Assembly: GCF_030463535.1 (NCBI RefSeq)
Contig: NC_132878.1
Span: 97,049,591-97,113,590, forward strand
DNA: 64,000 nucleotides
Direction: 5' to 3'
DNA from: Salminus brasiliensis
Taxonomy: Eukaryota > Chordata > Actinopteri > Characiformes > Bryconidae
How positions within the stretch are numbered: the first letter of the stretch is position 1; each line of letters starts with the position of its first letter. The position numbers and the translations under genes are program-made. Below are positions 15,166 through 60,149 of this stretch, piece by piece. The notes beneath the pieces are model-generated. The model had not been told where the DNA came from and searched no databases. It worked only from the letters and a program-made list of their open reading frames with translations.

Positions 15166-18100
15166 TCGAAGGGGGATCAGCTCGACTGGCTAACTAGTAT
15201 CATGCTAGCTAATACAATGGAAGGGGGATCAGCTCGACTGGCTAACTAGTATCATGCTAGCTAATACAATCAAAGGAGAATCAGCTCGACTGGCTAACTA
15301 GTAGCATGCTAGCTAATACAGTCAAAGGGGGATCAGCTCGACTGGCTAACTAGTAGCATGCTAGCTAATACAATGAAAGGGGGATCAGCTCGACTGGCTA
15401 ACTAGTAGCGTGATAGCTAATACAGTCGAAGGGGATCAGCTCGACAGGCTAACTAGTGGCATGATAGCTAATACAGTCGAAGGGGGATCAGCTCGACTGG
15501 CTAACTAGTAGCATGCTAGCTAATACAATCGAAGAGGATCAGCTCGACTGGCTAACTAGTAGCATGCTAGCTAATACAGTCAAAGGGGGATCAGCTCGAC
15601 TGGCTAACTAGTAGCATGCTAGCTAATACAATGAAAGGGGGATCAGCTCGACTGGCTAACTAGTAGCGTGATAGCTAATACAGTCGAAGGGGATCAGCTC
15701 GACAGGCTAACTAGTGGCATGCTAGCTAATACAATGAAAGGGGGATCAGCTCGACTGGCTAACTAGTAGCGTGATAGCTAATACAGTCGAAGGGGATCAG
15801 CTCGACAGGCTAACTAGTGGCATGATAGCTAATACAGTCGAAGGGGGATCAGCTCGACTGGCTAACTAGTAGCATGCTAGCTAATACAATCGAAGAGGAT
15901 CAGCTCGACTGGCTAACTAGTAGCATGCTAGCTAATACAGTCGAAGGGGGATCAGCTCGACTGGCTAACTAGTTGCATGCTAGCTAATACAATGAAAGGG
16001 GGATCAGCTCGACTGGCTAACTAGTAGCATGCTAGCTAATACAGTCGAAGGGGGATCAGCTCGACTGGCTAACTAGTAGCATGATAGCTAATACAGTCGA
16101 AGAGGATCAGCTCGACTGGCTAACTAGTAGCATGCTAGCTAATACAATCGAAGAGGATCAGCTCGACTGGCTAACTAGTAGCATGCTAGCTAATACAATC
16201 GAAGAGGATCAGCTCGACTGGCTAACTAGTAGCATGCTAGCTAATACAATGAAAGGGGGATCAGCTCGACTGGCTAACTAGTAGCGTGATAGCTAATACA
16301 GTCGAAGGGGATCAGCTCGACAGGCTAACTAGTAGCATGCTAGCTAATACAGTCGAAGGGGGATCAGCTCGACAGGCTAACTAGTAGCGTGATAGCTAAT
16401 ACAATGGAAGGGGGATCAGCTCGACTGGCTAACTAGTAGCATGCTAGCTAATACAATAGAAGGGGGATCAGCTCGACAGGCTAACTAGTAGCATGCTAGC
16501 TAATACAATCGAAGAGGATCAGCTCGACTGGCTAACTAGTATCATGCTAGCTAATACAATCGAAGAGGATCAGCTTGACTGGCTAACTAGTAGCATACTA
16601 GCTAATACAGTCGAAGGGGGATCAGCTTGACTGGCTAACTAGTAGCGTGATAGCTAATACAATCAAAGAGGATCAGCTCGACTGGCTAACTAGTAGCGTG
16701 ATAGCTAATACAATGGAAGGGGGATCAGCTCGACAGGCTAACTAGTAGCATGCTAGCTAATACAATGGAAGGGGGATCAGCTCGACTGGCTAACTAGTAG
16801 CATGCTAGCTAATACAATGGAAGGGGGATCAGCTTGACTGGCTAACTAGTAGCATGCTAGCTAATACAATGGAAGGGGGATCAGCTTGACTGGCTAAGTA
16901 GTAGCATGCTAGCTAATACAATGGAAGGGGGATCAGCTCGACTGGCTAACTAGTAGCATGCTAGCTAATACAATAGAAGGGGGATCAGCTCGACAGGCTA
17001 ACTAGTAGCATGCTAGCTAATACAATCGAAGAGGATCAGCTTGACTGGCTAACTAGTAGCGTGATAGCTAATACAGTCGAAGGGTATCAGCTCGACAGGC
17101 TAACTAGTGGCATGATAGCTAATACAGTCGAAGAGGATCAGCTCGACAAGCTAACTAGTGGCATGATAGCTAATACATTTTAATGGGGATCAGCTCGACA
17201 GGCTAACTAGTATCATGCTAGCTAATACAATGAAAGGGGGATCAGCTCGACTGGCTAACTAGTAGCGTGATAGCTAATACAATCAAAGAGGATCAGCTCG
17301 ACTGGCTAACTAGTATCATGCTAGCTAATACAGTCGAAGGGGGATCAGCTCGACAGGCTAACTAGTATCATGCTAGCTAATACAGTCGAAGGGGGATCAG
17401 CTCGACAGGCTAACTAGTATCATGCTAGCTAATACAGTCGAAGAGGATCAGCTCGACTGGCTAACTAGTATCATGCTAGCTAATACAGTCGAAGAGGATC
17501 AGCTCGACTGGCTAACTAGTATCATGCTAGCTAATACAGTCGAAGAGGATCAGCTCGACTGGCTAACTAGTATCATGCTAGCTAATACAGTCGAAGAGGA
17601 TCAGCTCGACTGGCTAACTAGTATCATGCTAGCTAATACAGTCGAAGGGGGATCAGCTCGACAGGCTAACTAGTATCATGCTAGCTAATACAGTCGAAGG
17701 GGGATCAGCTCGACTGGCTAACTAGTATCATGCTAGCTAATACAGTCGAAGAGGATCAGCTCGACTGGCTAACTAGTAGCATGCTAGCTAATACAATCGA
17801 AGAGGATCAGCTCGACTGGCTAACTAGTAGCATGCTAGCTAATACAGTCGAAGGGGGATCAGCTCGACAGGCTAACTAGTAGCATGATAGCTAATACAGT
17901 CGAAGGGGATCAGCTCGACAGGCTAACTAGTAGCATGATAGCTAATACAGTCGAAGGGGATCAGCTCGACAGGCTAACTAGTAGCATGATAGCTAATACA
18001 GTCGAAGGGGATCAGCTCGACTGGCTAACTAGTATCATGCTAGCTAATACAGTCGAAGGGGGATCAGCTCGACAGGCTAACTAGTATCATGCTAGCTAAT

Positions 18101-20048
18101 ACAGTCGAAGGGGGATCAGCTCGACAGGCTAACTAGTATCATGCTAGCTAATACAGTCGAAGAGGATCAGCTCGACTGGCTAACTAGTATCATGCTAGCT
18201 AATACAGTCGAAGAGGATCAGCTCGACTGGCTAACTAGTATCATGCTAGCTAATACAGTCGAAGAGGATCAGCTCGACTGGCTAACTAGTATCATGCTAG
18301 CTAATACAGTCGAAGGGGGATCAGCTCGACAGGCTAACTAGTATCATGCTAGCTAATACAGTCGAAGGGGGATCAGCTCGACTGGCTAACTAGTATCATG
18401 CTAGCTAATACAGTCGAAGAGGATCAGCTCGACTGGCTAACTAGTAGCATGCTAGCTAATACAATCGAAGAGGATCAGCTCGACTGGCTAACTAGTAGCA
18501 TGCTAGCTAATACAGTCGAAGGGGGATCAGCTCGACTGGCTAACTAGTATCATGCTAGCTAATACAGTCGAAGAGGATCAGCTCGACTGGCTAACTAGTA
18601 TCATGCTAGCTAATACAGTCGAAGGGGGATCAGCTCGACAGGCTAACTAGTATCATGCTAGCTAATACAGTCGAAGGGGGATCAGCTCGACTGGCTAACT
18701 AGTATCATGCTAGCTAATACAGTCGAAGAGGATCAGCTCGACTGGCTAACTAGTAGCATGCTAGCTAATACAATCGAAGAGGATCAGCTCGACTGGCTAA
18801 CTAGTAGCATGCTAGCTAATACAGTCGAAGGGGGATCAGCTCGACAGGCTAACTAGTAGCATGATAGCTAATACAGTCGAAGGGGATCAGCTCGACAGGC
18901 TAACTAGTAGCATGATAGCTAATACAGTCGAAGGGGATCAGCTCGACAGGCTAACTAGTAGCATGATAGCTAATACAGTCGAAGGGGATCAGCTCGACTG
19001 GCTAACTAGTATCATGCTAGCTAATACAGTCGAAGGGGGATCAGCTCGACTGGCTAACTAGTATCATGCTAGCTAATACAGTCGAAGGAGGATCAGCTCG
19101 ACAGGCTAACTAGTATCATGCTAGCTAATACAGTCGAAGGAGGATCAGCTCGACTGGCTAACTAGTAGCGTGATAGCTAATACAGTCGAAGGGGGATCAG
19201 CTCGACTGGCTAACTAGTATCATGCTAGCTAATACAGTCGAAGGGGGATCAGCTCGACTGGCTAACTAGTATCATGCTAGCTAATACAGTCGAAGGGGGA
19301 TCAGCTCGACAGGCTAACTAGTATCATGCTAGCTAATACAGTCGAAGGGGGATCAGCTCGACAGGCTAACTAGTATCATGCTAGCTAATACAGTCGAAGG
19401 AGGATCAGCTCGACTGGCTAACTAGTATCATGCTAGCTAATACAGTCGAAGGAGGATCAGCTCGACTGGCTAACTAGTATCATGCTAGCTAATACAGTCG
19501 AAGGGGGATCAGCTCGACTGGCTAACTAGTATCATGCTAGCTAATACAGTCGAAGGAGGATCAGCTCGACTGGCTAACTAGTATCATGCTAGCTAATACA
19601 GTCGAAGGGGGATCAGCTCGACTGGCTAACTAGTATCATGCTAGCTAATACAGTCGAAGGAGGATCAGCTCGACTGGCTAACTAGTATCATGCTAGCTAA
19701 TACAGTCGAAGGGGGATCAGCTCGACTGGCTAACTAGTATCATGCTAGCTAATACAGTCGAAGGAGGATCAGCTCGACTGGCTAACTAGTATCATGCTAG
19801 CTAATACAGTCGAAGGAGGATCAGCTCGACTGGCTAACTAGTATCATGCTAGCTAATACAGTCGAAGGGGGATCAGCTCGACTGGCTAACTAGTATCATG
19901 CTAGCTAATACAGTCGAAGGAGGATCAGCTCGACTGGCTAACTAGTATCATGCTAGCTAATACAGTCGAAGGAGGATCAGCTCGACTGGCTAACTAGTAT
20001 CATGCTAGCTAATACAGTCGAAGGGGGATCAGCTCGACTGGCTAACTA
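15166..20048. repeat. Satellite array, about 94 units of 51/52 bp
   Basis: The unit runs GGGGGATCAGCTCGACTGGC, TAACTAGTATCATGCTAGCT, AATACAGTCGAA (52 bp). Variants with GAAGAGGAT or GAAGGGGAT are 51 bp. Further variable sites are CTGGCT/CAGGCT and TATCATGCTAG/TAGCATGCTAG/TAGCGTGATAG/TGGCATGATAG. Blocks of several units recur: the stretch around 17693-18060 is repeated about 977 bp later, and another match is offset by about 668 bp. The right end (19380-20048) alternates GGAGGAT and GGGGGAT forms. Each unit carries an inverted pair TCGACTG/CAGTCGA. Runs of 51-bp units stay open in one frame (MLANTVEEDQLDWLTSI), but every 52-bp unit shifts the frame, so this is not a protein. Confidence 0.97.
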
Positions 20049-39903: not shown

Positions 39904-42735
39904 ATGGACACCCAAACCTTCAGCATCACGCTGACCCTGCTGCTGCTGCTGCTGCTCCAGTCAACAGGTTAGTAGCTGTAGGCCTTATCCCTGCACTGGT
40001 GGCTCAGTGGGGGAATCCTCACCTACCATGCGAGAGACCCGGGTCCGATTCCTGGCCAGTGCAGCCATCACAAGCTGAGGGATGGTGGTACCTCAGTGGT
40101 CAGAGCACTGGGTTGCTGAGAACAGGGGTCGTGGGTTTGATACCTGCGTCTGTTGGGCCCCTGGAGCAAGGCACGTAACCCTCTCTGCAACTGTTTTTGC
40201 TAAGCGGTTGCTATGGTGTTGCTAGATGGTTGCTAGACGAATGCTACAGAGTTGCTAATTCAGGTGTTTGTTATAGTGTTGCTTAGAGGCGTCCTAGACG
40301 GTTGCTATGGCAGTGGTGGATCAGCGGTTTGAGCACCGGGCTATTGATTACTGGTGTCTTGTTGACAAGTGGTTGCTGTGGTACCCTATGTGGTGCACTA
40401 GCCTTTGCAGTCTATTTATTCCTAAATCTGTTGCTATGCGGAAACTGTACGTCCAATCAAAGCGCTGAATCACAGTCACACTGAACAATCTGGAGTTCGT
40501 CCGATATCTCTATGACAACCAGCTAAACAGTGCTGGGGAAATAACCGTAAGCTACATTTGCTAATTAACCTAATGCTAATCTGAGTGTTAATATGTTATA
40601 TTATATAAAGTAATGATTAAGTCAGTCCTGATGCTGTAAATCTCTCCCACATGGTAAGGAATACGGTTTATTAATTTAGCAATGGTATCGGATCGGTATC
40701 GGATATCGACGATATGCAAAGTTTATGTATCATATCGGTATCGAAACTAGTCTTTGCTATGGTAACGATGAGAAAAGTTTGCCTTGCTCGGCTCGAAACA
40801 CTCAAAAGTCGCGTACTGAGTCTCTTAATGAATCATGGGTGTGTTTGTTTTGGGCGTAACATTAAGATCCCTTTAAGAGCCAGGTGCGGTCAGAATGACC
40901 TTGGTGGGTTGATATTTCAGTGGCTGTTTTCAGTCAGTGGAGCTCCTGCTGTGTTTTCCGTTTCCATCAGAAGAGAGATATTCACAAGCAGCGCTGCTGT
41001 TGCCGGGGTGTAAGATAGCAACGAGCATCGCAGGGTGTAAGATAGGGCCCTGAGTGTACTAACCTGCCAGGCCCGCACTATTAGTATTAGTATGTAGTGT
41101 TAGTGTGTAGTACGCAAGTGGGACGCAGCCAGTGTTTATCTCAGCAATATTAGCATTTCTGTGTGAAGTTTACTGTGACTAGCATTGACCTTCCCCAGCA
41201 GGACATGGCAGCTGGTCCATTAAAATGTAGATGTTCAGGATACTAACTGGACCTTAAAAGCATCCATTCAGAATTTGCAGTAAATCCACTGATATGGTAA
41301 CGGTCAGCGGATTTTATAGCTTAAAACAGGTCTGTTTAAGCCCCGCCTTCTCTCAGCTGCTATTGGTTGACATGTACATGCATCTACATGCAACTAGACC
41401 TAGTGGTCAAACCGTTTCCCACCACAGTCGACTGACCACAGCCTAAAAATGAATGGACACAAACGTAAATAAACACAAATCAGTGGAACTGAGTGACCAA
41501 TGAGAGTGTAGCGTACACACCAGCAAGGCTGGTATAATCGGATGATTTCTTTATGGCAACTGACTTTAATTTACATATTTGTCATTTATTTTTTGCATTC
41601 TTTTTGGCATGAAAATAAAAATAGTGTTCTGTAACAGGGTGGTAAAAGTGAAACTCATTAATGTTTTATTTATTTTGCTTGTATTAATGAAGCAATATTG
41701 GCTAGTAAGGTAGTTAAGGTATTAGTGTTGGTAGCATTTCTAGCCTTTTACTAGCATTAACCCTCTGTCCACAGCTCCAGCAGCCCACGATGATGGCTGG
41801 TCTATGACAGTTCCCACAGAGGTCCTAGCTAGGGAGGGTTACCCGGTTGTGCTGCCCTGCTCATTCACCCACCCCCACCAAACTCACCACTCCTCCATGC
41901 ACGTGGTGTGGCGTCTGGGTCATGGCCACACGGGCACGGTGTTGTTCCGCTGCTCGAGTCTCAATGGCAGCCAGCACTGCCAGCCCCAGCAAAACCAGGA
42001 CCAGCGCTACCGTCTGGAGGGAAACTACCGCGAGCATGACCTGTCACTGCGCATCAACAGTGCCTCCCTGCAGGACAGTGGCCGCTACTACTGCCGCGTA
42101 GAGCTGCCGGGACAACCACATGGTAGCTACGAGAATAAACTGGGGACGAGGCTGCGAGTGGAAGGTAATATTGACTTTATAAAAGGACAAAAGTATTGGG
42201 ACACTTGCTTATTTATTATTTCTTCTGAAATTGAGGGTTGAGTTTAGAAAACCTTTTTTGGAATAACCCCCATTTCTATTGTTGTTCTTCTGAACCAGCT
42301 CCACCACGCATCCTGAGCTTGACCGTAGAAGGCAGTGTGGACGCTACTCTCAAAGCCCTGTGTCAGGTTCAGGGCTACCCCTTACCGGACGTCCAGTGGA
42401 TGGTTCCAGATGATGTTTTCGAGGGCGATACTGGACTCCCGCTCGCTCAAGAGGCCCCTGTTCGGCACCGGACCACTAGCCAGCTGCTGGATGTCCAGCC
42501 GGGGGGGCAGTACACCTGTACTGCCTCAAACCACCTAGGCAAAGACCAAGCCATGGTGTACATTTTACCCCGCGCTCCAGAGAAGATTACCAGTGAGGCC
42601 AACTCTTCCGCTCTGCCACTGATGCTAGGGTTAGCATTAGTGGCTAAAGTGCTACTAGCCTTGGGTTTGGGGGCTTGGGTACTTAACCCCTTCAACTCAA
42701 AGGAGCCAACAGAGGGTCCAGATTTTACCTCCTAA
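39904..42735 (+). CDS. siglec15: Sialic acid-binding Ig-like lectin 15, three coding exons
   Basis: Exons 39904-39967, 41775-42164, 42299-42735, all phase 1 with GT/AG ends, 296 residues. Exon 1 is a signal peptide rich in Leu (MDTQTFSITLTLLLLLLLQS). Exon 2 is a V-set domain starting WSMTVPTEVLAREGYPVVLP; human SIGLEC15 has WSMQVPPEV at the same place. It keeps the FTHPH motif, the extra Cys pair FRC/HCQ (81, 90), the core Cys 50 and 128, and Arg129 in YYCRVE, which aligns with the essential sialic-acid-binding Arg143 of human. Exon 3 holds a C2-set domain (Cys 173, 225), a transmembrane helix near 256-280 containing Lys268 (the charge that pairs with DAP12 in mammals), and a short tail ending PDFTS. 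The mammalian tail with its YENL motif is absent. Role by family: myeloid sialic-acid receptor linked to osteoclast development and immune suppression. AATAAA is at 42781. Confidence 0.92.
39993..40063 (+). pseudogene. tRNA-Gly-like sequence, probably a pseudogene
   Basis: 71 nt, the length of tRNA-Gly. The acceptor stem GCACTGG/CCAGTGC pairs fully and the A box TGGCTCAGTGG is intact. The T arm CCGGG/CCTGG pairs with one wobble, but the B box is GGTCCGATTCC, with C for the invariant T. The anticodon loop CTACCAT would give ACC where tRNA-Gly has GCC, and one anticodon-stem pair is broken. It lies in siglec15 intron 1, directly before an S1 SINE copy. Confidence 0.6.
40080..40197 (+). mobile_element. 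SINE-like element, family S1 (partial, in siglec15 intron 1)
   Basis: GGTGGTACCTCAGTGGTCAG and AGCACTGGG (A-box region), TCGTGGGTTTGATACCTGCG (B-box-like), GTTGGGCCCCTGGAGCAAGG. The same order as 11375-11740 without the GT expansion. Confidence 0.6.
40198..41774. other. siglec15 intron 1, remainder
   Basis: Holds a second GTTGCTATGGTGTTGCTAG / TGTTGCTATGCGGAAACTG block (40195-40480). The rest is ordinary sequence with no exon I can support. AACAGGGTGGTAA at about 41632 echoes the words flanking the LINE. Confidence 0.45.
42178..42245 (+). mobile_element. Family 1 left-end fragment inside siglec15 intron 2
   Basis: GGACAAAAGTATTGGGACAC followed by TTGCTTATTTATTATTTCTTC and TGAAATTGAGGGTT is the first 65 bp of family 1. 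It makes up half of the 134-bp intron 2. Confidence 0.75.
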
Positions 42736-45350: not shown

Positions 45351-46019
45351 TCACACGCCTCTGAAGTCTGACTTTCTGCAGCTTTACAGAACTTCTAGAC
45401 AACGACTCCTCATATTTTCCTCCATGAAGCTCATGTTGATGCTCAGTAGAGCACAGAGACGCTCCTTTAATAGAGCTGATATTACTGAAATGCTTCATTT
45501 TCAATGGGCAGATCTGCAGCTGAAACAGGAGCCTAGTGCAGCCCAACATTTTTAACATCAACATTTTAATAGATCATTAGAATATCAGACATTAATATTA
45601 ATATACAACAGTATCCTCATTATGACTTTTAGAGAAATGGGTTTTTGGGGGGGGGGGGGCCTAAGCTTTCGGTCTTTGTTTTCCTTACATTACTTTTACT
45701 TTTCTACTTGAAGTGGTTCTGAAACCAGTACTTTTACACTTTTACTGGAGTAAAAAGCTTCAGTTGATTCTTCAGCTTCTATAGAAGTCTTTTAAACCCT
45801 CGTATCTCCACTCACTTCTACCTGAGGAATGAATGGCTATTCTTTTGACACCTTTGGTCAGCACCAAACCGAACTGAATGAACTGAACTGAACCGAATGT
45901 TTTATGCTAATATTGCTTTTATTAATGCAGATATACTCATAACTGTACTGCACATATAAATAAACAGCAGATATGCTTACTTAGACTGATTATATATATA
46001 TCTATATATCTATATCTAT

Positions 46020-46171: not shown

Positions 46172-48774
46172 TCAGCCAAATGGGTTGATGAGACTCAGGT
46201 AGCTGGGTGGGCTGAAACACATGGGCTTCATGGATGAGCAGCATCGTGCACTGCCCCACGTATAGCTCCCGTTGGGCTCCATCTTGACAAACACACACAT
46301 GCCTTTCTCAGGATTGACCGGCTGGCCGCTGTCCCAGTTGAAGAAGCTAAAGACTTGTCCGCTTTGCCAGTACCACTCCATGGTCTGTAGGCTGCGCCGC
46401 AGGCCGATCCACGCCTGACCTTTAGCTCCAATCTTGGTCAGCTCCAGGGCCATGTAACGCTGAGCAGCGGCCCAGCTAGGGCTGGCCAGCTGACCGCCTT
46501 TCTGCATGCAGTACTGACGAGACTCTGGCCAGCTCACTGATTGATCACTGACCTTCAGGATTGCCGGAGAGACCAAACAGCCGCTGGGGTCTGAAAGAAA
46601 ACACACACTTAAGCTGTGTTTGCACTAAAATTAGAGCCTGTTTACACCTGGAATTACCAGCGCTTTGGTTCATCGGATCAATTTCGGATTACACTTGGCT
46701 GCATGAAAAGCCTGGTGTCAACAACCGGCATTACGCGCTGTAGTCGGATTAAGATCGGATCACTCAAACCTCAGAGTACCCCCCAAATCTCCTCCCAGTA
46801 CAACAGAACCCTCCCATTACCTCCAAAACTCCTCCCAGTACAACAGAACCCTCCCAGTACCTCCAAAACTCTTCCCAGTACAACAAAAACACCTCCTAGT
46901 ACAACCAAACCCCCTCCCAGCACAGCAGAAACAACTCCCAATACAAGAGAAACAACTCCAAATACAACAGAACCCTCCCAGTACCTCCAAAACCCCTTCC
47001 AGTACAACAAAAACACCTCCTAGTACAACAGAAACAACACCTAGTAAAACTCCTGTAATCGAATGACGATCGGATCACTCAAACCTCCTAGTAACCCAAA
47101 AAAAACCCTCCCAGTACAACAAAACCCCTCCCAGTACAACAACTGCCAGTACAACCCCTCCCAATACAACAGAATCACCTCCTAGTACAACCCCTCCAAG
47201 TACAAGAGAAACAACTCCCAGCACAGCAGAAACACCTCCCATTTCAACCAAAACCCATCCCAGTACAACATATACTCCCAATACCACCAAAACTCCTCCC
47301 AGTAGCACCAAAACTCCTCCCGGTACAACTTAAAGTAGCTAAAGCATTCATTAGTCCACAAACATTTGGACATATAGTGTATTTGTGGTCACTTACCTGG
47401 TTCTTTATTTATAGAGATAGCTGGACCACCATATTCAACCGAAGTCTGCATTTTCTCAAGGACGTACACTGCCATCTTTGAGGAGGGATGCCAAATGACG
47501 TGGGACATCAGGAGAAAAAGATCCACTGTGGCCCAGGAGTACGCCGTGCCATTTATGTCGTTCCACTCTAACGATGAGCCAAACGTGTTGCTGTCTAGAC
47601 GTACATCTGAGACATGGGCCGTTTCAACGATGAGCAAAGCCTCTGATTTGGTGACCGAGGTGACGTGGACCAGGTAGCAGGCCGAGAACATGGAGACGGG
47701 GATGAGATCCATCAAACTTGCGACACCCATGAGCCTCAGGGACACAGGTTGGGAGGCTGAGATGTTGGAGAACCCCATCGTTAGCTGTTGGTAGAAGGGT
47801 AGGAAGTCGGAGCTGCCAGCATCCAACATCTCAGAGCCAGTCAGGGGTGGAGAACCGTACCTGAGCTCCACTGACTCGTCTGACGTCGAGAACATTCGGG
47901 AATTGTTGGTAATGTAGGACGGAGGTACGAGGAAACTGTCCCCCAGGAGGTTTGCGGGCCTGAGCTGATGGACCACCATCGTGCATCTGCAGAGCGAGGT
48001 GTCCAAGCAAGGGTGGGTTAGCAAGATGGAGATGTTGGCTTTAGCGGTGACCTTCATCAAGGAGTCGCTGCTCTTCATCTGGAGAACCTGGAAGGGGCTG
48101 AGCTTGACGCTCGTCTCCGAGCCGCTTTGTTCGTTGGTGACCTTCACCGTGTTCTCCTTATCTTCTGCGTTGATGATGAGAACCCTGAAGTAGTTGTAAG
48201 TCTGGGCCTGACTGGAAGAATCTGAAGAGACGACCCAGTCGGAGACGTTGTAGTCGTTTAGCATTAAGAGGAGCTCTGTGAAATTGAGGAAGGGAACGTG
48301 ATACTCCTGACCCAGGTTAGTCACAGGTTGGACAACGTTGGTCTGGACGCTGTTCGCCCTCTTGCTTATCGAAAACACAGTGATGTCATTGCTGCTGGTG
48401 ATTCGGACAGACTTTGAGGATTGGCCGAGTTGGTGCTCCTCCACCTCACTGGGAAGATACACAGCTTGCGTCTGGCCTGCGTTCAGGGTCCCCGTTATGA
48501 AGTTTGCGCCGTTGTAGATGACGTGGAAGTTAGTGTTGGCGTGGAGGGCGGTGATTTTGAGGACGTTGGTGAGAACGGACGGATAGTAGTAGGCGATGTT
48601 CTCCGGAAAGGCTGTGACGAAGTCCCTACCGTAGTCCTCCGCGGCATGGCCTGGTAGAAGAGGCAGAGCGGGTTATCGCTGTACGCCTGAATCATTCCAA
48701 CTGCAGAAAATGACCAAGCACCTTACCAGCTTACCTTGGTAAATCACAGATACCGTGAGCAGGATGGTCAGCAT
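46172..48774 (-). CDS. Secreted IgGFc-binding-domain / C-type lectin protein, copy A
   Basis: Coding exons on the minus strand: 48735-48774 (signal peptide, MLTILLTVSVIYQ), 47397-48650 (1254 nt) and 46172-46590 (419 nt). All junctions are phase 1 with GT/AG, giving 570 residues. Exon 2 codes for one domain starting GRDFVTAFPENIAYYY and containing NAGQTQAVYLPSEVEEHQLG, SSNDITVFSIS and SHVIWHPSSKMAVYV. This is the IgGFc-binding domain found at the N-terminus of FCGBP and related vertebrate proteins. Exon 3 codes for a C-type lectin domain (SWPESRQYC, AWIGLRR, FFNWDSGQPVNPEKGMC, SARCCSSMKPMC). The usual calcium-ligand motifs are missing: QPV stands where EPN/QPD is expected and there is no WND. 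Several NxS/T sites suggest glycosylation. A 5' non-coding exon probably ends at 50630, with exon 1 starting at 48836. Function not known; an extracellular, perhaps mucosal, defence lectin is a guess. Confidence 0.85.
46755..47332. repeat. Minisatellite in copy A intron 2 (CCTCCCAGTACAACA)
   Basis: About 35 imperfect units of 15 bp (CTCCCAGTACAACAGAACC type). Two near copies of a GATCGGATCACTCAAACCTC segment at 46753 and 47070 show that the array has been duplicated as a block. On the + strand one frame reads PSTTKTPPSTT, mucin-like but antisense to the gene. Copy B lacks this array. Confidence 0.9.
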
Positions 48775-48892
48775 GATTATGGAGATGGGACAGGTGTTCG
48801 ACCGGACAGCTTCAGCGCTTTTAGCAAGGGCTTGAGCTGTGAAGAAGAACAGCAGCAGTTACACAGCAGGTTCCTTCGGTGTGTGTTGACAC

Positions 48893-49090
48893 CATAGACC
48901 AGGGCTGCTCAATCCTGGTCCTGGAGATCTACCACCCTGAGGAGTCCAGATCCAACACAGCTGACTCTGATGTTCAGATGCTCCTGAAGGCCTTCATTAC
49001 CTGGATCAGGTGTGGTAGATTTGAGGTGGAGCTAAACTCTGCAGGGTGGTAGATCCCCAGGACCAGGATTGAGCAGACCTGCCATAGACT
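48893..49090. mobile_element. Foldback miniature element (TCCTGGTCCTGGAGATCTAC)
   Basis: Left arm CCAGGGCTGCTCAATCCTGG, TCCTGGAGATCTACCACCCT. Right arm is its near complement AGGGTGGTAGATCCCCAGGA, CCAGGATTGAGCAG. A widespread type of teleost palindromic element, here in the 5'UTR intron of copy A. Confidence 0.75.
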
Positions 49091-49269
49091 GTATATAAGG
49101 TTGGACTGGATGACGGAGGTAAGACCCTTTACTACTGCAGCAGCAATGATCAGGCTGGTCAGGAAGAGTCAGTTTGCATGTCCTTCACGCATGAGGCGTG
49201 TTCTTTGACTGGGTTTTGACCTGCAGTGAACCGTTCCTGACCTTCGCCATTGTGCACTGTCCAATAATA

Positions 49270-49530
49270 ACACCACTCACAGCTGATGGAGGAAGATCTA
49301 GGAGGGAGGAAATTTCACCAGCTGACTTGTTGTTGGTGCTGAGCTCCTATTACATACAGAACCACGCTGGAGTTCAGTGAGCTCTTTAGAACCTCCTGTT
49401 CTTTCACTGATGTGTGGAAGAAAGGCAGACTGCAGGGCTAGAGGCTTGATTTTACACACCTGCGGCAATGAGACTGAATTCAATGATAAAGAGGTGTGTC
49501 CCAATACTTTTGTCAATATAGTGTATACAC
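49270..49530 (-). mobile_element. Tc1-like element, 5' fragment (minus orientation)
   Basis: Mirror of 23866-24112: GAAATTTCACCAGCTGACTTG, CTGGAGTTCAGTGAGCTC, TGTGTGGAAGAAAGGCAGAC, ending GTGTCCCAATACTTTTGTCA. Carries only the first codons of a decayed transposase. Confidence 0.65.
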
Positions 49531-49594
49531 TCTTGCTGTCATGTGGGGGAAAAAGTAACTATTTCCAAAACAATAGTAGAAGGAAGCAGCTCTC

Positions 49595-49800
49595 AGAGGT
49601 CGATGTTCTACGGAAACGAGAGGTTCTAAAGACACAAGAGGTTCTAAGGATATGAGATGTTCTACAGATTTGAGAGGTCTTAAGGATACAAAAGGTTCTA
49701 AGGATAATAAAGGTTTAACAGATATGAGAGGTTCTAAGGATACAAGCGGTTCTACATATATGAGGTCTTATAGATACGAGAGGTTCTAAGGATACCAGAA
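49595..49800. repeat. 18-bp minisatellite (GAGAGGTTCTAAGGATAC)
   Basis: About 11 imperfect units of GAGAGGTTCTAAGGATAC, with TTCTACAGATATGAG variants, in the 5'UTR intron of copy A. Confidence 0.8.
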
Positions 49801-50099
49801 GGGAGGAATTTCGTGGTACTGAACAAGAGTATAAGAATAACAACAGTTCTTCTGTTCACGTCTTTTATGGAGCACGTTGAGTAAACATCCACAGAGCAGG
49901 CTAGAAAAAGTAAGTGAACCTCTGTGTTAATGAATTCTCAGAGAGCTAATTGGCGAAAGGTGTTTCAGTAAAGATGATGATTGGATGGATGGGTTTCACA
50001 GACGCCTTGCCCATGAAATCCAGGCACACAGAACTGAAGTTATTATCTGAATATTATTAACAAAGTTAATAATAAAAGTTTTTGAATGTTTTGACTGCA

Positions 50100-50326
50100 A
50101 TTAAACATGAAGTATAATTACATTTATATTTATTTAAATATGTAATAAGTTACATTTATTTAAATGATTTCATACACACAACTAGATGTAATCAGAATCA
50201 GACGGTTGCTCAGAATTTTATGATGAATGAACCAATAGAAATGCTCCAAAATTAGGAAATAAAAGTTACTGTTGAAGATACAGGTGTTTTGTGTGATGAC
50301 TATATATATATATAAATAAATATTAT

Positions 50327-50380
<54 letters not shown>

Positions 50381-50580
50381 ATCACCTCCCATGATTTTAT
50401 ATATATATATAATATATATAAAATACAATATATTATTATATAAATACTTCTTTTTTATCATTTATTTATTTTTATTATTTATATATTATATTTTAAGAAC
50501 TTATATGGTTGGAATAATGTTATTTATAATTATTATATATACACATGGTATGTAATATTTATAACTGATAATCATAAATA
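50100..50580. repeat. AT-rich tract with (TA)n
   Basis: (TA)n at 50333-50378 and several shorter TA runs. No gene. Confidence 0.8.
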
Positions 50581-50629
50581 AACTAAAGGTCATGATGTGT
50601 GTTTATTAAAAATTTTAGAAAGTCCTTAC

Positions 50630-50691
50630 CTGTGGAGAAAACACACTCCAGCCCTCCAAACTATCCGTTTTGTGGGATCTATCCTCTACAG

Positions 50692-50748
<57 letters not shown>

Positions 50749-51150
50749 TCATTTGATTTTCAAATGCCTGTATTTACACTCACGTTTGCATGACATGCTG
50801 CAGACCCTGGACCTTTAAGGACAAGGTGTTTCAGGTGACATGAAGGCAAATGAGCTGCTTTACCACAACCACAACCACAACCACCCACTATAGAGGGGAT
50901 ATACTGTTCAAGGGGAAATCCACCCATTTTCTACAATTCTGCATAATAAACAGTTAAGATATGAGAACAGAGTGAGTCTGAGAGGGGGGTGGTGGTGTTG
51001 GTGGGTTTAGTGTGAAACGCTTGGTTCTAGATAAGCTCCCCCAGTCAGAGCTGGAGTTCTAAAGTGGAGGTGAAGGGAAGCAGACGTCTGAAGCTCTAAT
51101 AAAAGCTCCTCACAGAAAGTTCTTCACCTAATGCCTGATGTCTGAGACAG
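50630..51150 (-). promoter_or_regulatory. Copy A 5' non-coding exon and promoter block
   Basis: On the minus strand a donor (CCACAG then GTAAGG) ends a likely first exon at 50630. Upstream, in the same order as at 57411-57920, come a CA microsatellite (50710-50746), the 14-mer TTTGCATGACATGC (50785-50798), CAAGGTGTTTCAGGTGACAT, GATAAGCTCCCCCAGTCAGA and GAAGCAGACGTCTGAAGCTC. On the minus strand the 14-mer gives ATGCAAA, an octamer-like core. The true transcription start is unknown. Confidence 0.45.
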
Positions 51151-51356
51151 AGGAGGGTTAGTAAATAAATTAAAAAATGAATAATAATGTAATGTGGGGG
51201 TATTCATGTAATTAACGTGATCTAATTAATCCATTTGTGGTAAAATCTGAAAGTACACCGCTGCGTCACCATAAAGCTATAACATAAAGCGAAAAGCAAT
51301 AACTATACATTCTACAATAACTTTTTAGCACAACCTGAATTTATTTAGGCATTTAG

Positions 51357-51359
<3 letters not shown>

Positions 51360-51394
<35 letters not shown>

Positions 51395-51402
51395 TAATAA
51401 TA

Positions 51403-51442
<40 letters not shown>

Positions 51443-52260
51443 TCAGTGGTTCAGCTCATCCCACAATGACCATACAGATAATTTACAGTGATTGGTTCAG
51501 CTCCTCCCCCAATGACCATATAGATCATATAGATTATATATACACTTAGTGATTCAGCTCCTCCCTCAATAACTGTATAGATCATATATATATATATATA
51601 TATATATTCTGTGAGTGGTTCAGCTGAATTTTTGGTTCAGTATGGATCATATATATCATATATACATTCAGAGGTCCAGGCCCCCCCCAATGGTTGTATA
51701 TCATATATAAAGTTATAAAGTCAGAGGTTCAGCTCCGCCCCTCCCAATGACTGTATGTATATATATATATACATATATATAGTGAGAGGTTCTGCTCCAC
51801 CCCCTGACCATATAGATCATATAGGCCACATATATCATATTCTGTGAGTGGTTCAGCTCCTCCCCCAATGACTGTATGGATCATATATATCATATATACA
51901 TTCAAAGGTTCAGCTCCCCCCCAATGACAGACTGTTTATACAATATATATGATCTATACAGTGTTTCAGCTCCACCCCCTAATTGGCAGTATAGATCATA
52001 TGTATTAAACATAAATAGTCAGTGGTTCAGCTCCACCTCATGACCATATAGATCATATATATGGTGAATGGTTCAGCTTCTCCCCAGTAACCATAGAGAT
52101 CATATTATATATATATTTTTTTTTTTTTCAGAGGTTCAGCTCCTCCCCCAATGATTGCATATCATATATAAAGTCAGTGGCTTAGCTCCGCCCCTCTTAA
52201 TGGCTGTATAGATTATTTAGACCATATATACAGTGACAGGTTCAGTGGTTATATTTGGCT
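51360..52260. repeat. Degenerate 60-75 bp array between the two lectin genes
   Basis: Starts with A and TA runs (51357-51440). Then about 11 imperfect units contain GTTCAGCTCCTCCCCCAATG, ACCATATAGATCATATATAT and CATATATACAGTCAGTG. It lies between the candidate promoter of copy A and the 3' end of copy B. Confidence 0.8.
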
Positions 52261-52434
52261 AAATAGTGTACATAAGCTTTCACTGCCTGTTAACTACATT
52301 AGTTTAAAACTAAAAAAAAAAACAGTAAAAAGTATAAACTGATTAGCTACATTTGGGGTAAGAAGCTGGGTTGATTGTACACCAAACTGTTCTGTTTATG
52401 AAAGCTAATGCTAAGGTGAAGTATTAGCAGGCTC

Positions 52435-55400
52435 TCAGGACAGCGTGTTGGTGAGAGTGAGGTAGCTTGTCGGTATGTAACACAAGGGCTTCAAGGATGA
52501 GCAGCAACGTGCAGTGCTCCATTTGTAGCTCCCTTTGGGCTCCATCTTAATGGAAACACACATGCCTTTCTCCGGATTGACCGGCTGGCCGCTGTCCCAG
52601 TTGGAGAAGCTGAAGTCCAGCCCACTCTGCCAGTACCAATTTGTGGTCAGCAGGCGGCGCCGCAGGCCGATCCACGCCTGGCCTCGGGCTCCAATCTTTG
52701 TCAGTTTCAGGGCGGTGGAAACCTGGGCCTCTGCATAACTAGGACTGGACAGACGACCACCCTCCTGTATGCAGTACTGACGAGACTCCGGCCAGCTTAA
52801 CCCATCATTTTTGACCTTCAGCATTGCCGGAGAGACCAAACAGCCGTTGGCGTCTGCAAGAAATCACACACTTAGAGTAATAGTGCTTTTAATTTCACTC
52901 CACTTATCTGTGCATTTCTAATTACGTGGCCTCTTTCTGCATCTTTTCCAACTGCCATCGATGCGGCATCGCCAGGCAGCCAACACGCTCTGAGGAAAGC
53001 GCCGGGGGCAGTCAGATGCCTGTGCCGGCCAACATTGCTTAAGAGTAATGAGGGGATAGAGCGCCGTCTACCCACCCGGAGAGAGAGCACGACCAACTGT
53101 GCTCCCTCAGTCTCCGGCTACTGATGGCAAAGCATGGCTCGGGATTCAAACGTGTGACCCCTGGGCCATAGGGGTGGTACATTAGACCAGGGAGCCCCTT
53201 TGAGCCCTACATTTTGGGAGTTTTTTATGGCTATTTAAGACATCCACAAATGTGTTGTCATAATTAAATAAGTAAATTGAATGTATGTTCGTTACTGCAG
53301 TTCAAAATATATATATCCAGTAGGGGGCATGTGGAATTTTGACTGATTTGAAGATGTAAACAAGCTCATTGAGAGTGGGGGTATGGTGGGTTTGGTGTGA
53401 AACCTACCCAGTCAGAACTGGTCACAGCACCAAATACCAACATAAGTAACTACTCAAGTACTCAGGCCTGTATTCTGATTATTTGGGCCAACCCTGACCA
53501 AGAATTTCCAGTTTCGCGTCTGATGTGTTCAGTTGGTAGCAACTTCTACTTCCGACCTCATCATTAACCATAACAGTAGCTTTTCTAGCTTTACCTGGTA
53601 TGTCACTGACTGAGATAGCCGGACCTCCATAAGGAACCCCCATCGCCATATTCTCAAAGACGTACACCGCAATCTTCGAGGAGGGATGCCAGATTACATG
53701 CGACATCAAAGAATGAAGATTCACTCTGGCCCAAGAGTATATGGTACCAACTATGACGTTCCAGACCACCGTCGAGTCAAAAGATCCACCATCCAAGCGC
53801 ACACTTTGTGCTTGCAGTGTTTCGACGATGACAAAGGCCTGAGATTTGGTCGCAGAGGTGGTGTGGACCAGGTAGCAGGCCGAGAACATGGAGACTGGGA
53901 GGAGATCTACCAAACTGCCGAAGCGGAGGAGCCTCAGGGACACAGGCTGGGAGGCTGAGATGTTGGAGAAGCCGTCCTTTAGAAGTTGGTAAAAGGGTAG
54001 GAAGGCAGAGCTGCCAGGATTCAACGTCTGAGAGCCGTAGCGTGGTGGAGATCCATACTTGAGCTTGACAGGCTGGTCTGACGTCGAGAACATTCGGGAA
54101 TTGTTGGTAATGTAAGGCGGAGGTACGAGGAAACTGTCCCCCAGGAGGTTTGCGGGCCTGAGCTGATGGACCACCATCGTGCATCTGCAGAGCGAGGTGT
54201 CCAAGCAAGGGTGGGTTAGCAAGATGGAGATGTTGGCTTTAGCGGTGACCTTCATCAAGGAGTCGCTGCTCTGTATCTGGAGAACCTCGAAGGGGCTGAG
54301 CTTAACGCTCGTCTCCGAGCCGCTTTGTTCGTTGGTGACCTTCACCGTGTTCTCCTTATCTTCTGCGTTGATGATGAGAACCCGGAAGTAGTTGTAAGTC
54401 TGGGCCTGACTGGAAGAATCCAAAGAGACGACCCAGTTTGTGATGCTGTAGTCGTTTAGCATTAAGAGGAGCTCTGTGAAATTGAGGAAGGGAACGTGAT
54501 ACTCCTGACCCAGGTTAGTCACAGGTTGGACGACGTTGGTCTGGACGCTGTTCGCCCTCTCGCTTATCGAAAACACAGTGATGTCATTGCTGCTGGTGAT
54601 TCGGACAGACTTTGAGGATTGGCCGAGTTGGTGCTCCTCCACCTCACTGGGAAGATACACAGCTTGCGTCTGGCCTGCGTTCAGGGTCCCCGTTTTAATG
54701 ACGGAGCCGTCGAAGACGACATAGAAGTTAGTGCTGGCGTGGAGGGCGGTGATTTTGAGGATGTTGGTAACACTGGATGGATCGTAGGAGGCGACGTCCA
54801 CCGGAAAGGCCGTGACGAAGTCCCTACCACAGTCCACCACAGCATGGCCTGGTGAAAACACACAGGTTGTTATTGGTGAAGTCCAGGGTCTTCAATCTCA
54901 CCTCACAGTCTACTGCTCCAACACATTCCCCTCATAGGTCTTGTTTAGACTTCTGACTTACACAGCAACTGAATCCTGATGGTTACAATGTTCAGAAAAC
55001 AAAGCCGTGTGGGACACCCCTGGTGGTCAACTGTGGTACTGACGTATAGCTATCTGTGCTCACCTTCTTCACCCAGTGTCCAAATAAATACACTGGATCA
55101 CATAATCAAACCAATCAAAATGACCACACTGACTAACACTCTGGCTATTGAGTGCTAATTGGCTGTTGTTCTGGGCTACTGAGCGCTAATTAGCTTGTAT
55201 TCTAATTACCGAGCACTGATTGGCTGGAATTCTGACTACTGATTTGCCTGTTGTTCTGGCTAGTGAGTGCCGACTGTCTTGTTCTGGACTAAGTGCTAAT
55301 ACGCTGGCATTCTGGCTACTGAGCGCTGATTGGCTGTTGTAATGGCAGTGAGTGCTGATTGGCTGGCATTGTAACTACTAAGTCCTGATTGGCTGGTATT

Positions 55401-56487
55401 CTGGCTACTGAATGCTAAATATCTTCAATTCTGGCTACTGAGTGCTGAATGTGTTTTTCTAGCTAATGAGTGCACACTAGTTGGAATTCTGGCTACTGAG
55501 TGCCGACTGGCTGGCATTGTAACTACTGAATGCTTATTACTGAGTGCTGATTGGCTGGTATTCTTGCACTGAGTTCGGAATGGTTGCTATTCTGGCTACA
55601 GAGTGCTGAATGTTATTTATTCTGGCTACTGATTGGCTGGTATTCTGACTAGGTGCTAATTGGCTGGCATTGTAACTACTTAGTGCTGAACATCTTATTA
55701 CTGAGTACTGATTGGCTGGCATTCTGGCTACTGAGTGCTGATTGGAAGGCACTGTAACTACTTAGTGCAACGCGTCTTATTACTGAGTGCTGATTGGCTG
55801 GTATTCTAGCTACTGAGTGCTGACTGGTTGACAGTCTTTCTACTGAGTGCTGATTGGATTGCATTGTAACTACTTAATGCTGAACGTCTTATTACTGAGT
55901 GCTGATTGGCTGGTATTCTGGCTACTGAGTGCTGATTGGATGGCATTGTAACTAGTTAGTGCTGAACGTCTTATGACTGAGTACTGATTGGCTGTTGTTC
56001 TGGCAGTGAGTGCTGATTGGCTGGCATTGTAACTGCTAAGTCCTGATTGGCTGGTATTCTGGCTGCTGAGTGCTGACTGGCTATTGTCCTGGCTACTAAG
56101 TGCTGAATGTGTTTTTCTAGCTAACGAGTGCTGATTGGCTGGTATTCTGGCTACTGAGTGCTGACTGGTTGGCAGTCTTTCTACTGAATGCTGATTGGAT
56201 GTCATTGTAACTACTTAGTGCTGAACATCTTCTGACTGAGTGCTGATTGGCTGATGTTCTGGCTACTGAGTGCTGATTGGCTAGCTTTGCTGTTCTATGT
56301 GGAGAAATTGAGAGCAGCTTTGTGTGTTAAAATTCATAGCATTTACAAACAAGGCTTTAAATGGACACTTGCTCAGGAGCGCCCTCTAGTGTCTGAACAA
56401 ACCAGAAGACATTACAAGCTCTCAGGTTTAGTCCTGGACTAACTTACCTTGATTAAACACAGACATAACGAGCAGCAAGGCCAACAT
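52435..56487 (-). CDS. Secreted IgGFc-binding-domain / C-type lectin protein, copy B
   Basis: Coding exons on the minus strand: 56448-56487 (MLALLLVMSVFNQ), 53595-54848 (1254 nt), 52435-52853 (419 nt), giving 570 residues. Exon lengths and phases are exactly those of copy A. The mature protein begins near AVVDCGRDFVTAFPVDVASY, with a Cys not present in copy A. The IgGFc-binding domain spans roughly residues 20-425 and the C-type lectin domain 435-560 (SWPESRQYC, AWIGLRRRL, FSNWDSGQPVNPEKGMC, STARCCSSLKPLC). QPV replaces the calcium-binding EPN/QPD motif, and WST replaces WND. The central part of exon 2 is nearly identical to copy A while both flanks differ at about a third of residues. Exon 1 probably starts at 56532 after a TTTTTTAG acceptor and is joined to a 5' exon ending at 57411. 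Intron 1 is 1.6 kb here but 84 bp in copy A because of a minisatellite. Function unknown. Confidence 0.85.
53035..53165 (-). mobile_element. SINE-like element, family S3 (in copy B intron 2)
   Basis: GGGATAGAGCGCCGTCTACC, CACCCGGAGAGAGAGCACGA, CTACTGATGGCAAAGCATGG and CTCGGGATTCAAACGTGTGA: an S3 copy with a decayed B box. Confidence 0.6.
55140..56290. repeat. Minisatellite in copy B intron 1 (CTACTGAGTGCTGATTGGCT)
   Basis: About 35 imperfect units of roughly 30 bp: CTACTGAGTGCTGATTGGCT followed by GGTATTCTGG or GGCATTGTAA. A larger block containing both spacer types also repeats. About 20 units keep ATTGG, which on the transcribed minus strand is CCAAT. One minus frame reads as SNQHSVARIPANQHSV-like text; not a gene. 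Confidence 0.9.
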
Positions 56488-57410: not shown

Positions 57411-57920
57411 CTGGTGGAGAAGACCCACACTCCAGCCTGCCAGACTCAACCTCTGAGACGGGACCTTCACAAACATGACTAACACATGCAGTTTAGACAC
57501 ACACACACACACACACACACACATTTGACATTCAAACCTCACTATTTTCACACACTTTTGCATGACATGCACTGGACCCAGAGCCTCAAGGACAAGGTGT
57601 TTCAGGTGACATTAAGGCAAATGAGCCTGAACCAAAACCACCACAGGTTTGGTGCGTTCACTGTGAAACACTCGGTTCTAGATAAGCTCCCCCAGTCAGA
57701 GCTGGAGTTCTACAGTGGAGGTTCTAGATAAGCTCCCCCAGTCAGAGCTGGAGTTCTACAGTGGAGGTTCTAGATAAGCTCCCCCAGTCAGAGCTGCAGT
57801 TCTACAGTGGAGGTGAAGGGAAGCAGACGTCTGAAGCTCTAATAATAAAAGCTCCTCACAGAAAGTTCTTCACCTAATGGTGATGAAGACGCTGCCTGAT
57901 GCCTGAGACACGGTTCTACC
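57411..57920 (-). promoter_or_regulatory. Copy B 5' non-coding exon and promoter block
   Basis: Donor CCACCAG then GTAAGA ends a likely first exon at 57411. The block then repeats the order at copy A: CA microsatellite (57496-57523), TTTGCATGACATGC (57557-57570), CAAGGTGTTTCAGGTGACAT, GATAAGCTCCCCCAGTCAGA. In this copy a 45-bp piece (GGTTCTAGATAAGCTCCCCC, AGTCAGAGCTGGAGTTCTAC) is present three times in tandem (57670-57800), against once at copy A. Confidence 0.45.
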
Positions 57921-59365: not shown

Positions 59366-60073
59366 TCACTCTTGTCCTCCTCCTGCTGCTGTTGTTGTTT
59401 TTCGTCCTTCCCTGGGACGTCCTGTCTGCTTCCTTGGGCCTTTACCTCTCCCTCCTTCTCCTCCTCCTCCTCCTGCACTTCCAGGACCTCCAGGACCTCC
59501 ACCCCGTCCTCCTCCTCCTCCTCCTCTTTTCCTCCTCTGTTGATGCCTCTGGCTCTGAGACTCCTCTTTAACAGCTTGAGCCCAAAGCGCATCGAAGCTG
59601 CCCGGCGCTTGGTACCCAGGCTGGCCGGAGTCCAGCGGGTCTCTGGAGAGCAGAACCCAAATCCCAGGCACGTTCCTGCTGACCGTGAGGTTGTCCAGGC
59701 CAGCCTCCGGCTCCAGCGGCTCCCAAGTCTCCTGCACGGTCCGGTAGAGCAGCCGGGTGCACTGGTGCAGGCCGCGGACTCGCCGCTTCAGGATCTCCAC
59801 GCAGGTGATGGCCTTGGCCACGCTCGGACCCACTCCGGTGAACACGATCTGCCTGCACAGGCTTCCCCCAGAGGCTGGAGCGCTCTGCTGCGGTTCCTCT
59901 GCAGCCCCGCTTTCGGCCGGCGCTCTCCCCTCCATGCGGCTCAGAGCGAACTTCATGAGGTTGCGGATTTTGCTGCCGTCCCGAACTCGGACCTGAGGGG
60001 TGTCGGCAGAGAGGCTGGGGAAGGGACACGGGCAGGGCTGCTCCACCACACCTGCCTTTCTGTAGTTCTCCAT
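59366..60073 (-). CDS. rpp25: Ribonuclease P/MRP subunit p25 family protein (Alba domain), coding sequence in one exon
   Basis: 235 residues. The start MENYRKAGVVEQPCPCPFP matches the N-terminus of the RPP25/RPP25L family. The Alba core follows at about residues 25-150: RVRDGSKIRNLMKFALSRME, RQIVFTGVGPSVAKAITCVE, ILKRRVRGLHQCTRLLYRTV, then NVPGIWVLLSRDPLDSGQPG. This protein pairs with RPP20 and binds the P3 region of RNase P and RNase MRP RNAs, acting in pre-tRNA and pre-rRNA processing. An insert (APAESGAAEEPQQSAPASGG) separates the first helix from the second strand. The tail from about residue 180 is Gly/Arg-rich (RKRGGGGGGRGGG), longer than in human RPP25L. The start is preceded on the minus strand by a strong acceptor (TTCTCTGCATCCAG, about 60103), so a 5' non-coding exon is likely upstream. 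Whether it is the rpp25 or rpp25l orthologue cannot be settled here. Confidence 0.9.
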   Translation of the reverse strand: MENYRKAGVVEQPCPCPFPSLSADTPQVRVRDGSKIRNLMKFALSRMEGRAPAESGAAEEPQQSAPASGGSLCRQIVFTGVGPSVAKAITCVEILKRRVRGLHQCTRLLYRTVQETWEPLEPEAGLDNLTVSRNVPGIWVLLSRDPLDSGQPGYQAPGSFDALWAQAVKEESQSQRHQQRRKRGGGGGGRGGGPGGPGSAGGGGGEGGRGKGPRKQTGRPREGRKTTTAAGGGQE

Positions 60074-60149
60074 AGTTCACCTGCAGCTGCAGCTGGAGCT
60101 CACCTGGATGCAGAGAAAAAAAATCACATTCATTTAGAACTATTAGTTA

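Follow-up and report, generated by a model that had tools for sequence, protein, structure and literature searches.

Two adjacent genes, here called A and B, were identified in a 64,000-nt window of the Salminus brasiliensis genome (RefSeq assembly GCF_030463535.1; contig NC_132878.1, denoted C1, positions 97049591-97113590). "Window" refers to this whole stretch, and unless a contig is named, positions are counted from its first nucleotide. Each gene is predicted to encode a secreted protein in which the N-terminal IgGFc-binding domain of the FCGBP family (the "head") is followed by a single C-type lectin-like domain (CTLD). Our preferred reading, to which we assign a probability of roughly one half, is that A and B are two intact, duplicated genes for a secreted and soluble protein, that head and CTLD were brought together by exon shuffling long ago, that the product would play a bridging role, and that parts of the two copies have been kept alike by gene conversion.

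Structure of the two genes

Both genes lie on the minus strand in the same orientation, B being the upstream copy, and their coding regions together extend from the end of the stop codon of A (46172) to the start of the first codon of B (56487). The coding exons are as follows.

48774-48735 (40 nt), minus strand: first coding exon of gene A, with the start codon and a hydrophobic stretch resembling a signal peptide (gene model)
48650-47397 (1254 nt), minus strand: second coding exon of gene A, with the IgGFc-binding domain (FCGBP head), flanked by introns predicted to be in phase 1 (gene model, Pfam)
46590-46172 (419 nt), minus strand: third coding exon of gene A, with the C-type lectin-like domain, ending in the stop codon (Lectin_C, E 9.2e-13 for the exon alone)
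56487-56448 (40 nt), minus strand: first coding exon of gene B, with the start codon and a hydrophobic stretch (gene model)
54848-53595 (1254 nt), minus strand: second coding exon of gene B, with the IgGFc-binding domain, flanked by introns predicted to be in phase 1 (gene model, Pfam)
52853-52435 (419 nt), minus strand: third coding exon of gene B, with the C-type lectin-like domain, ending in the stop codon (Lectin_C, E 3.9e-12 for the exon alone)

The coding introns of both genes are bounded by GT and AG and, given exon lengths of 40, 1254 and 419 nt, are in phase 1. An earlier, sequence-only reading of this DNA had claimed identical coding-exon lengths for the two genes, and these proved exact in both copies, coordinates included; both copies also translate, as it had modelled them, to 570 amino acids with both domains. 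The tandem duplication that it proposed is supported by 77% identity between the two proteins (80% in the heads) and by an upstream block common to A and B. No further convincing copy of the pair was found in the window by tblastn. Since frame, exon lengths and splice phases have been kept in two copies, chance is not a reasonable explanation for the arrangement.

Several more trivial accounts of the pair were considered and rejected. A duplicate created by the assembly would be expected neither from the introns, which gave no match at E 1e-3, nor from exon 3, with an identity of just 79%. Two separate genes are contradicted by the open frame of gene A, in which no ATG precedes the CTLD, and by the identical layout seen twice; unspliced, exon 2 of A reaches a stop codon just past its donor. 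Pseudogenes were rejected because the frames are open and the rate of nonsynonymous substitution (dN) is below that of synonymous substitution (dS) over most of the protein. The last intron of gene A contains a minisatellite (46775-47330), the plus strand of which can be read, over two open stretches split by a stop codon, as Thr/Pro/Ser repeats (TPPSTT) of mucin-like type. This repeat was rejected as an exon, because the reading runs opposite to the gene and contains the stop.

Searches with hidden Markov models, which had been named as a check on the sequence-only reading, placed both domains above the curated Pfam cut-offs (25.6 bits for IgGFc_binding, 22.6 bits for Lectin_C) in both proteins. 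IgGFc_binding (PF17517) was matched by residues 118-410 of A (E 4e-19, 69.4 bits) and 119-411 of B (E 9e-20, 71.5 bits); Lectin_C (PF00059) was matched by residues 449-556 of A (E 3e-11, 44.4 bits) and 450-557 of B (E 4e-11, 43.9 bits). Each domain was also recovered by Pfam from its own exon alone in both copies. With E values of 1e-11 to 1e-20 these are not chance matches; Arena_nucleocap and a few other families gave weak matches below their own cut-offs and were rejected. None of the three proteins submitted to NCBIfam was assigned to a family. The first 14-16 residues of A and B appear by eye to be signal-peptide-like, and no transmembrane segment was seen after the CTLD. The product is predicted, as the most likely case, to be secreted and soluble, with an unglycosylated mass of about 61 kDa, and to comprise a signal peptide, an FCGBP head and one C-terminal CTLD, without the VWD/C8/TIL backbone. 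Four N-glycosylation motifs are common to A and B, and A has three more.

Heads across the genome and proposed origin of the fusion

The 1.066-Gb assembly (103 contigs) contains eight loci that match the IgGFc Pfam model. A protein query with the head of B, carried to E 10, returned the same eight and nothing else (nine rows, one locus being split). Besides A and B, two of the IgGFc genes are on contig C3, one is on C11, and three are on C1 at 89.92-89.98 Mb. These last three stand in tandem about 30 kb apart, some 7 Mb from the pair, with heads 92-96% identical. From the six genes together, ten downstream open reading frames of 206-267 residues were chosen, at least one per gene; all ten contained VWD, C8 or TIL domains, and the six genes are therefore of FCGBP type. 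The sequence-only reading had contrasted the pair with FCGBP, in which the head precedes von Willebrand D repeats, and the contrast holds throughout this genome: six of six other IgGFc genes run on into VWD, C8 or TIL, and a lectin-like exon follows the IgGFc exon in A and B only. In the pair the VWD-C8-TIL repeats of the family do not follow the head; instead, the CTLD exon closes the reading frame.

Genome-wide counts of VWD and Lectin_C are lower bounds, only the best candidates having been scored. No VWD domain was present near C1:97.09-97.11 Mb among the matches listed (best 150 of 190 candidates scored), and no Lectin_C domain was present in any of the three regions that surround the six FCGBP-type genes among the matches listed (best 150 of 753 candidates). 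The Lectin_C list is not exhaustive, because the CTLDs of the window itself are missing from it.

The N-terminal IgGFc-binding domain that marks the FCGBP family is present in A and B and can be aligned with the corresponding exons of the six FCGBP-type genes. The 1254-nt exon aligns over its full length with the single IgGFc exon of each, and its predicted borders are likewise in phase 1; all eight exons retain two invariant cysteines in the head. Unlike FCGBP, the pair has a CTLD in place of VWD/C8/TIL, and its heads share only 25-28% identity with the FCGBP heads, for which mutual identity is 29-96%. A profile of the eight IgGFc exons found no match in the PDB up to E 1.

In each of the eight genes a single long open frame encodes the IgGFc domain, and its borders are predicted to be in phase 1. 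A splice-site script found a phase-1 acceptor and a phase-1 donor for five genes; for the three tandem genes on C1 (C1a-C1c) it offered phase-1 acceptor candidates and no donor. The script matched GTRA donors only, and the donor of C1a-C1c, GTAGGA, was read by eye as phase 1. Alternative phase-2 acceptors were offered for C1a-C1c, for C11 and for one of the C3 genes (C3b), as was an alternative phase-2 donor for gene A. The CTLD exon of the pair starts in phase 1. Of the earlier proposal of exon shuffling at phase-1 introns, then, the phase-1 borders are upheld as predictions, and because of them a shuffle between compatible borders is plausible; the shuffle itself goes no further than that. 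The fusion does not appear to be recent, given the 25-28% identity between the heads of the pair and those of FCGBP.

Selection and probable gene conversion between the copies

Over the whole coding region, dS between A and B is 0.30 and dN is 0.14, with substitutions distributed very unevenly. Codons 67-275 have a dS of 0.057 and a dN of 0.028, as compared to a dS of 0.27 in codons 1-66, 0.59 in codons 276-431 and 0.48 in the CTLD. When silent changes were placed at random, none of 5000 placements gave an equally empty window of 209 codons. The conserved stretch can be delimited on the nucleotide level to 577 nt, equivalent to codons 65-257, or the front-to-middle part of the head; its flanks inside exon 2 are 81% and 76% identical.

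47920..48496, minus strand: gene A copy of the putative conversion tract, with 97.6% identity to gene B over 577 nt
54118..54694, minus strand: gene B copy of the putative conversion tract, matching 47920-48496 with 97.6% identity over 577 nt

Because dS is about 0.06 in the tract versus 0.27-0.59 elsewhere, and identity reaches 97.6%, recent gene conversion between the neighbouring copies is the best reading of this pattern. It would be an addition, inside exon 2, to the account given by the sequence-only reading. In the rear of the head and in the CTLD, silent changes are in excess: dN/dS is about 0.41 in residues 276-431 (Fisher p 5e-5) and about 0.38 in the CTLD (p 9e-5). Computation shows purifying selection on most of the protein.

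The lectin-like domain

Both copies match the Lectin_C profile and have the four conserved cysteines of the CTLD superfamily (459, 530, 548 and 556), which pair with one another in CTLDs and here align with those of relatives. With gene B as query, the nearest solved relatives were CTLDs of LY75 and MRC2. In C-type lectins, Ca2+ and sugar are bound by the residues of an EPN or QPD motif plus those of WND. Opposite the EPN and WND of the second matched stretch of MRC2, gene B has QPV and WST and gene A has QPV and WGS, so the canonical motif is missing in both copies. The pair had been called a "two-headed lectin", and as a statement about function this was not borne out, precisely because the canonical Ca2+/sugar residues are absent from A and B alike. 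The standard sugar site is lacking in the pair, as it is in many CTLDs of this genome; a different mode of binding is possible.

For comparison, 14 of the 110 CTLD matches outside the pair were aligned (one of the 14 is partial). EPN and WND occur together in two of these exons (C1_48.473 and C9_4.919), QPN and WND in one (C13_28.085), and neither pair in the remaining 11. The best matches to the CTLDs of A and B were at C27:24.5-25.2 Mb, with 33% identity and E values of 2.8e-10 (one internal stop) and 1.2e-9 (no stop). They resemble the CTLD exon of the pair in being single-frame exons that, by eye, start in phase 1. They are not thereby shown to be its donor, however: a tree built from 16 sequences groups the pair, by a long branch, with C15_2.308 (support 0.86). 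A large array of closely spaced single-frame CTLD exons occupies C27:24.53-24.80 Mb.

A possible function and its alternatives

Under our preferred reading, an IgGFc exon between phase-1 introns would have been joined long ago to a phase-1 CTLD exon, with tandem duplication following the joining. The product could then act in soluble form as a bridge, in plasma or on mucosal surfaces: the FCGBP-type head would dock on a host glycoprotein or mucus component, and the CTLD, which lacks the usual Ca2+ site, would bind a target, either a microbial surface or a host protein. Gene conversion would keep the front-to-middle part of the head alike between the copies as the rear of the head and the CTLD diverged. 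To our knowledge, the binding partner of the FCGBP head is unsettled. Fc binding has been reported for human FCGBP (PMC10880436). The teleost isotypes named, however, are IgM, IgD and IgT/Z (PMC7566178), so IgG cannot be assumed as the ligand of A and B and, in a teleost, does not seem a plausible one.

Several points weigh against this reading. Constraint on silent sites could, in principle, account for the low dS of the tract. With a dN of 0.242 and a dS of 0.273, codons 1-66 have a ratio near 0.9, and purifying selection is not evident there. Loss of EPN/WND is common in this genome, both motifs occurring in only 2 of the 14 compared CTLD exons, and hence the loss says little about a new function. 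The signal peptide and the missing membrane segment were judged by eye, and an immune or mucosal role would be ascribed to A and B from their relatives only.

A wider proposal can be made, though we offer it tentatively and consider it unlikely to hold in full: A and B may represent a separate, old class of soluble recognition proteins of fish, in which an FCGBP head freed of its mucin-like backbone is combined with a Ca2+-independent CTLD, and in which a fixed host side (front to middle of the head, held by gene conversion) is set against a diversifying target side (rear of the head and CTLD).

The main rival is a purely structural role, in which both domains would serve to cross-link glycoproteins in a small matrix, mucus or egg-envelope component, with no recognition of microbes. 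The missing Ca2+/sugar residues would fit such a role, as would the cysteine content of gene B, which at 11 is odd; the extra cysteine, at residue 20, could form an intermolecular disulfide. FCGBP itself has been described as a component of the mucus scaffold in the intestine (PMC9354016). Gene A, on the other hand, has an even count of 10 cysteines, neither protein has a VWD assembly with which to build a network, and a binding face undergoing change would account at least equally well for the way in which the rear head and CTLD have diverged. We regard a structural role as doubtful.

Less probable still is a working, glycan-binding lectin with a non-canonical site in the CTLD, which comes near to the original proposal. 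The Lectin_C score is above cut-off in A and B, and both copies retain WIGL along with the four expected cysteines, features with an established role in CTLDs. The replacement of EPN and WND by QPV and WGS/WST argues against it. Variation in that place is also found among known relatives, however: QPD and WQN stand there in the first matched stretch of MRC2.

A mistaken model, whether an IgGFc-only gene beside an unrelated and unspliced CTLD exon or a pair of decaying pseudogenes, would be compatible with gene models predicted from sequence, with the long minisatellite in the last intron of A and with the dN/dS near 0.9 in codons 1-66, but is very improbable in view of the arrangement, lengths and phases shared by both copies, the CTLD without a preceding ATG in the frame of A, the open frames and consensus-like splice sites, and a dN well under dS in the rear head and CTLD.

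Flanking elements and other features of the window

Similarity between the copies extends upstream of the coding exons, and candidate flanking elements are as follows.

50630..50875, donor after 50630, minus strand: gene A predicted noncoding first exon and upstream region like that of gene B (by similarity; 5' end undefined)
57411..57644, donor after 57411, minus strand: gene B predicted noncoding first exon and upstream region (by similarity; 5' end undefined)
45918..45923, minus strand: candidate poly(A) signal (AATAAA) for gene A, lying 248 nt beyond its stop codon

The upstream block common to A and B measures 153 nt and is 82% identical; it is followed by a simple-repeat stretch and then by a similar exon edge with a donor. 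Because block and exon-edge donor are similar in the two genes, each copy probably has its own promoter and noncoding first exon, for a total of four exons. The predicted noncoding exon is a further addition to the earlier account. The closest AATAAA or ATTAAA to gene B is 1089 nt beyond its stop codon.

Elsewhere in the window, a 52-bp minisatellite of about 95 copies (94% matches) occupies 15166-20048. Plus-strand open frames at 41744-42735 contain Ig V-set and I-set domains (Pfam) followed by a hydrophobic segment, and we take them to be siglec-like. A minus-strand open frame at 59366-60076 contains an Alba domain (Pfam) and presumably resembles the RNase P subunit RPP25. A tRNA-Gly (anticodon ACC) was predicted at 39992-40067 with 36.7 bits in Rfam, and may be a tRNA-derived repeat; nothing but tRNA reached the Rfam gathering score.

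Comparison with known systems

The architecture of A and B is, as far as sequence can tell, a new combination of known modules, for which a function can only be proposed. Viral contigs gave 32 pattern matches, and bacterial and archaeal contigs 16, with no confirmed relatives in either set. Among the titles and passages covered in the open literature, outside of which most subscription papers lie, no fish protein with both an IgGFc-binding domain and a CTLD was described; the combination may already sit unnamed in databases.

The Pfam IgGFc family postdates the 2004 survey of CTLDs. That survey sorted vertebrate CTLDs into groups I-XVII and described additional, fish-specific groups (Zelensky and Gready 2004, PMC514892), among which A and B would find company as single-CTLD and apparently secreted proteins. 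An IgGFc partner domain, however, is not mentioned for groups I-XVII in the available portion of the same Fugu survey (PMC514892). In a study of sponges, an IgGFc-binding domain is named in the legend of a figure on pattern receptors (PMC8242945). The nearest published likeness that we found is a limpet adhesive protein, P-vulgata_1 (PMC7333891). Like A and B, it is a secreted protein, in this case of a mollusc, with a C-type lectin-like domain and with BLAST similarity to IgGFc-binding protein; it differs from them in containing VWD domains along with six EGF domains and others, and no IgGFc head domain is tabulated for it in the available part of the source (PMC7333891).

Against human FCGBP, the head of which has 450 residues (PMC9354016), the fish pair offers a small natural protein that carries the head without the long repeat backbone, and thus a tractable way to ask what the FCGBP head does, in a group of animals without IgG. 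With six heads joined to VWD and two joined to a CTLD, a single genome presents a clear case of the re-use of a domain-sized exon.

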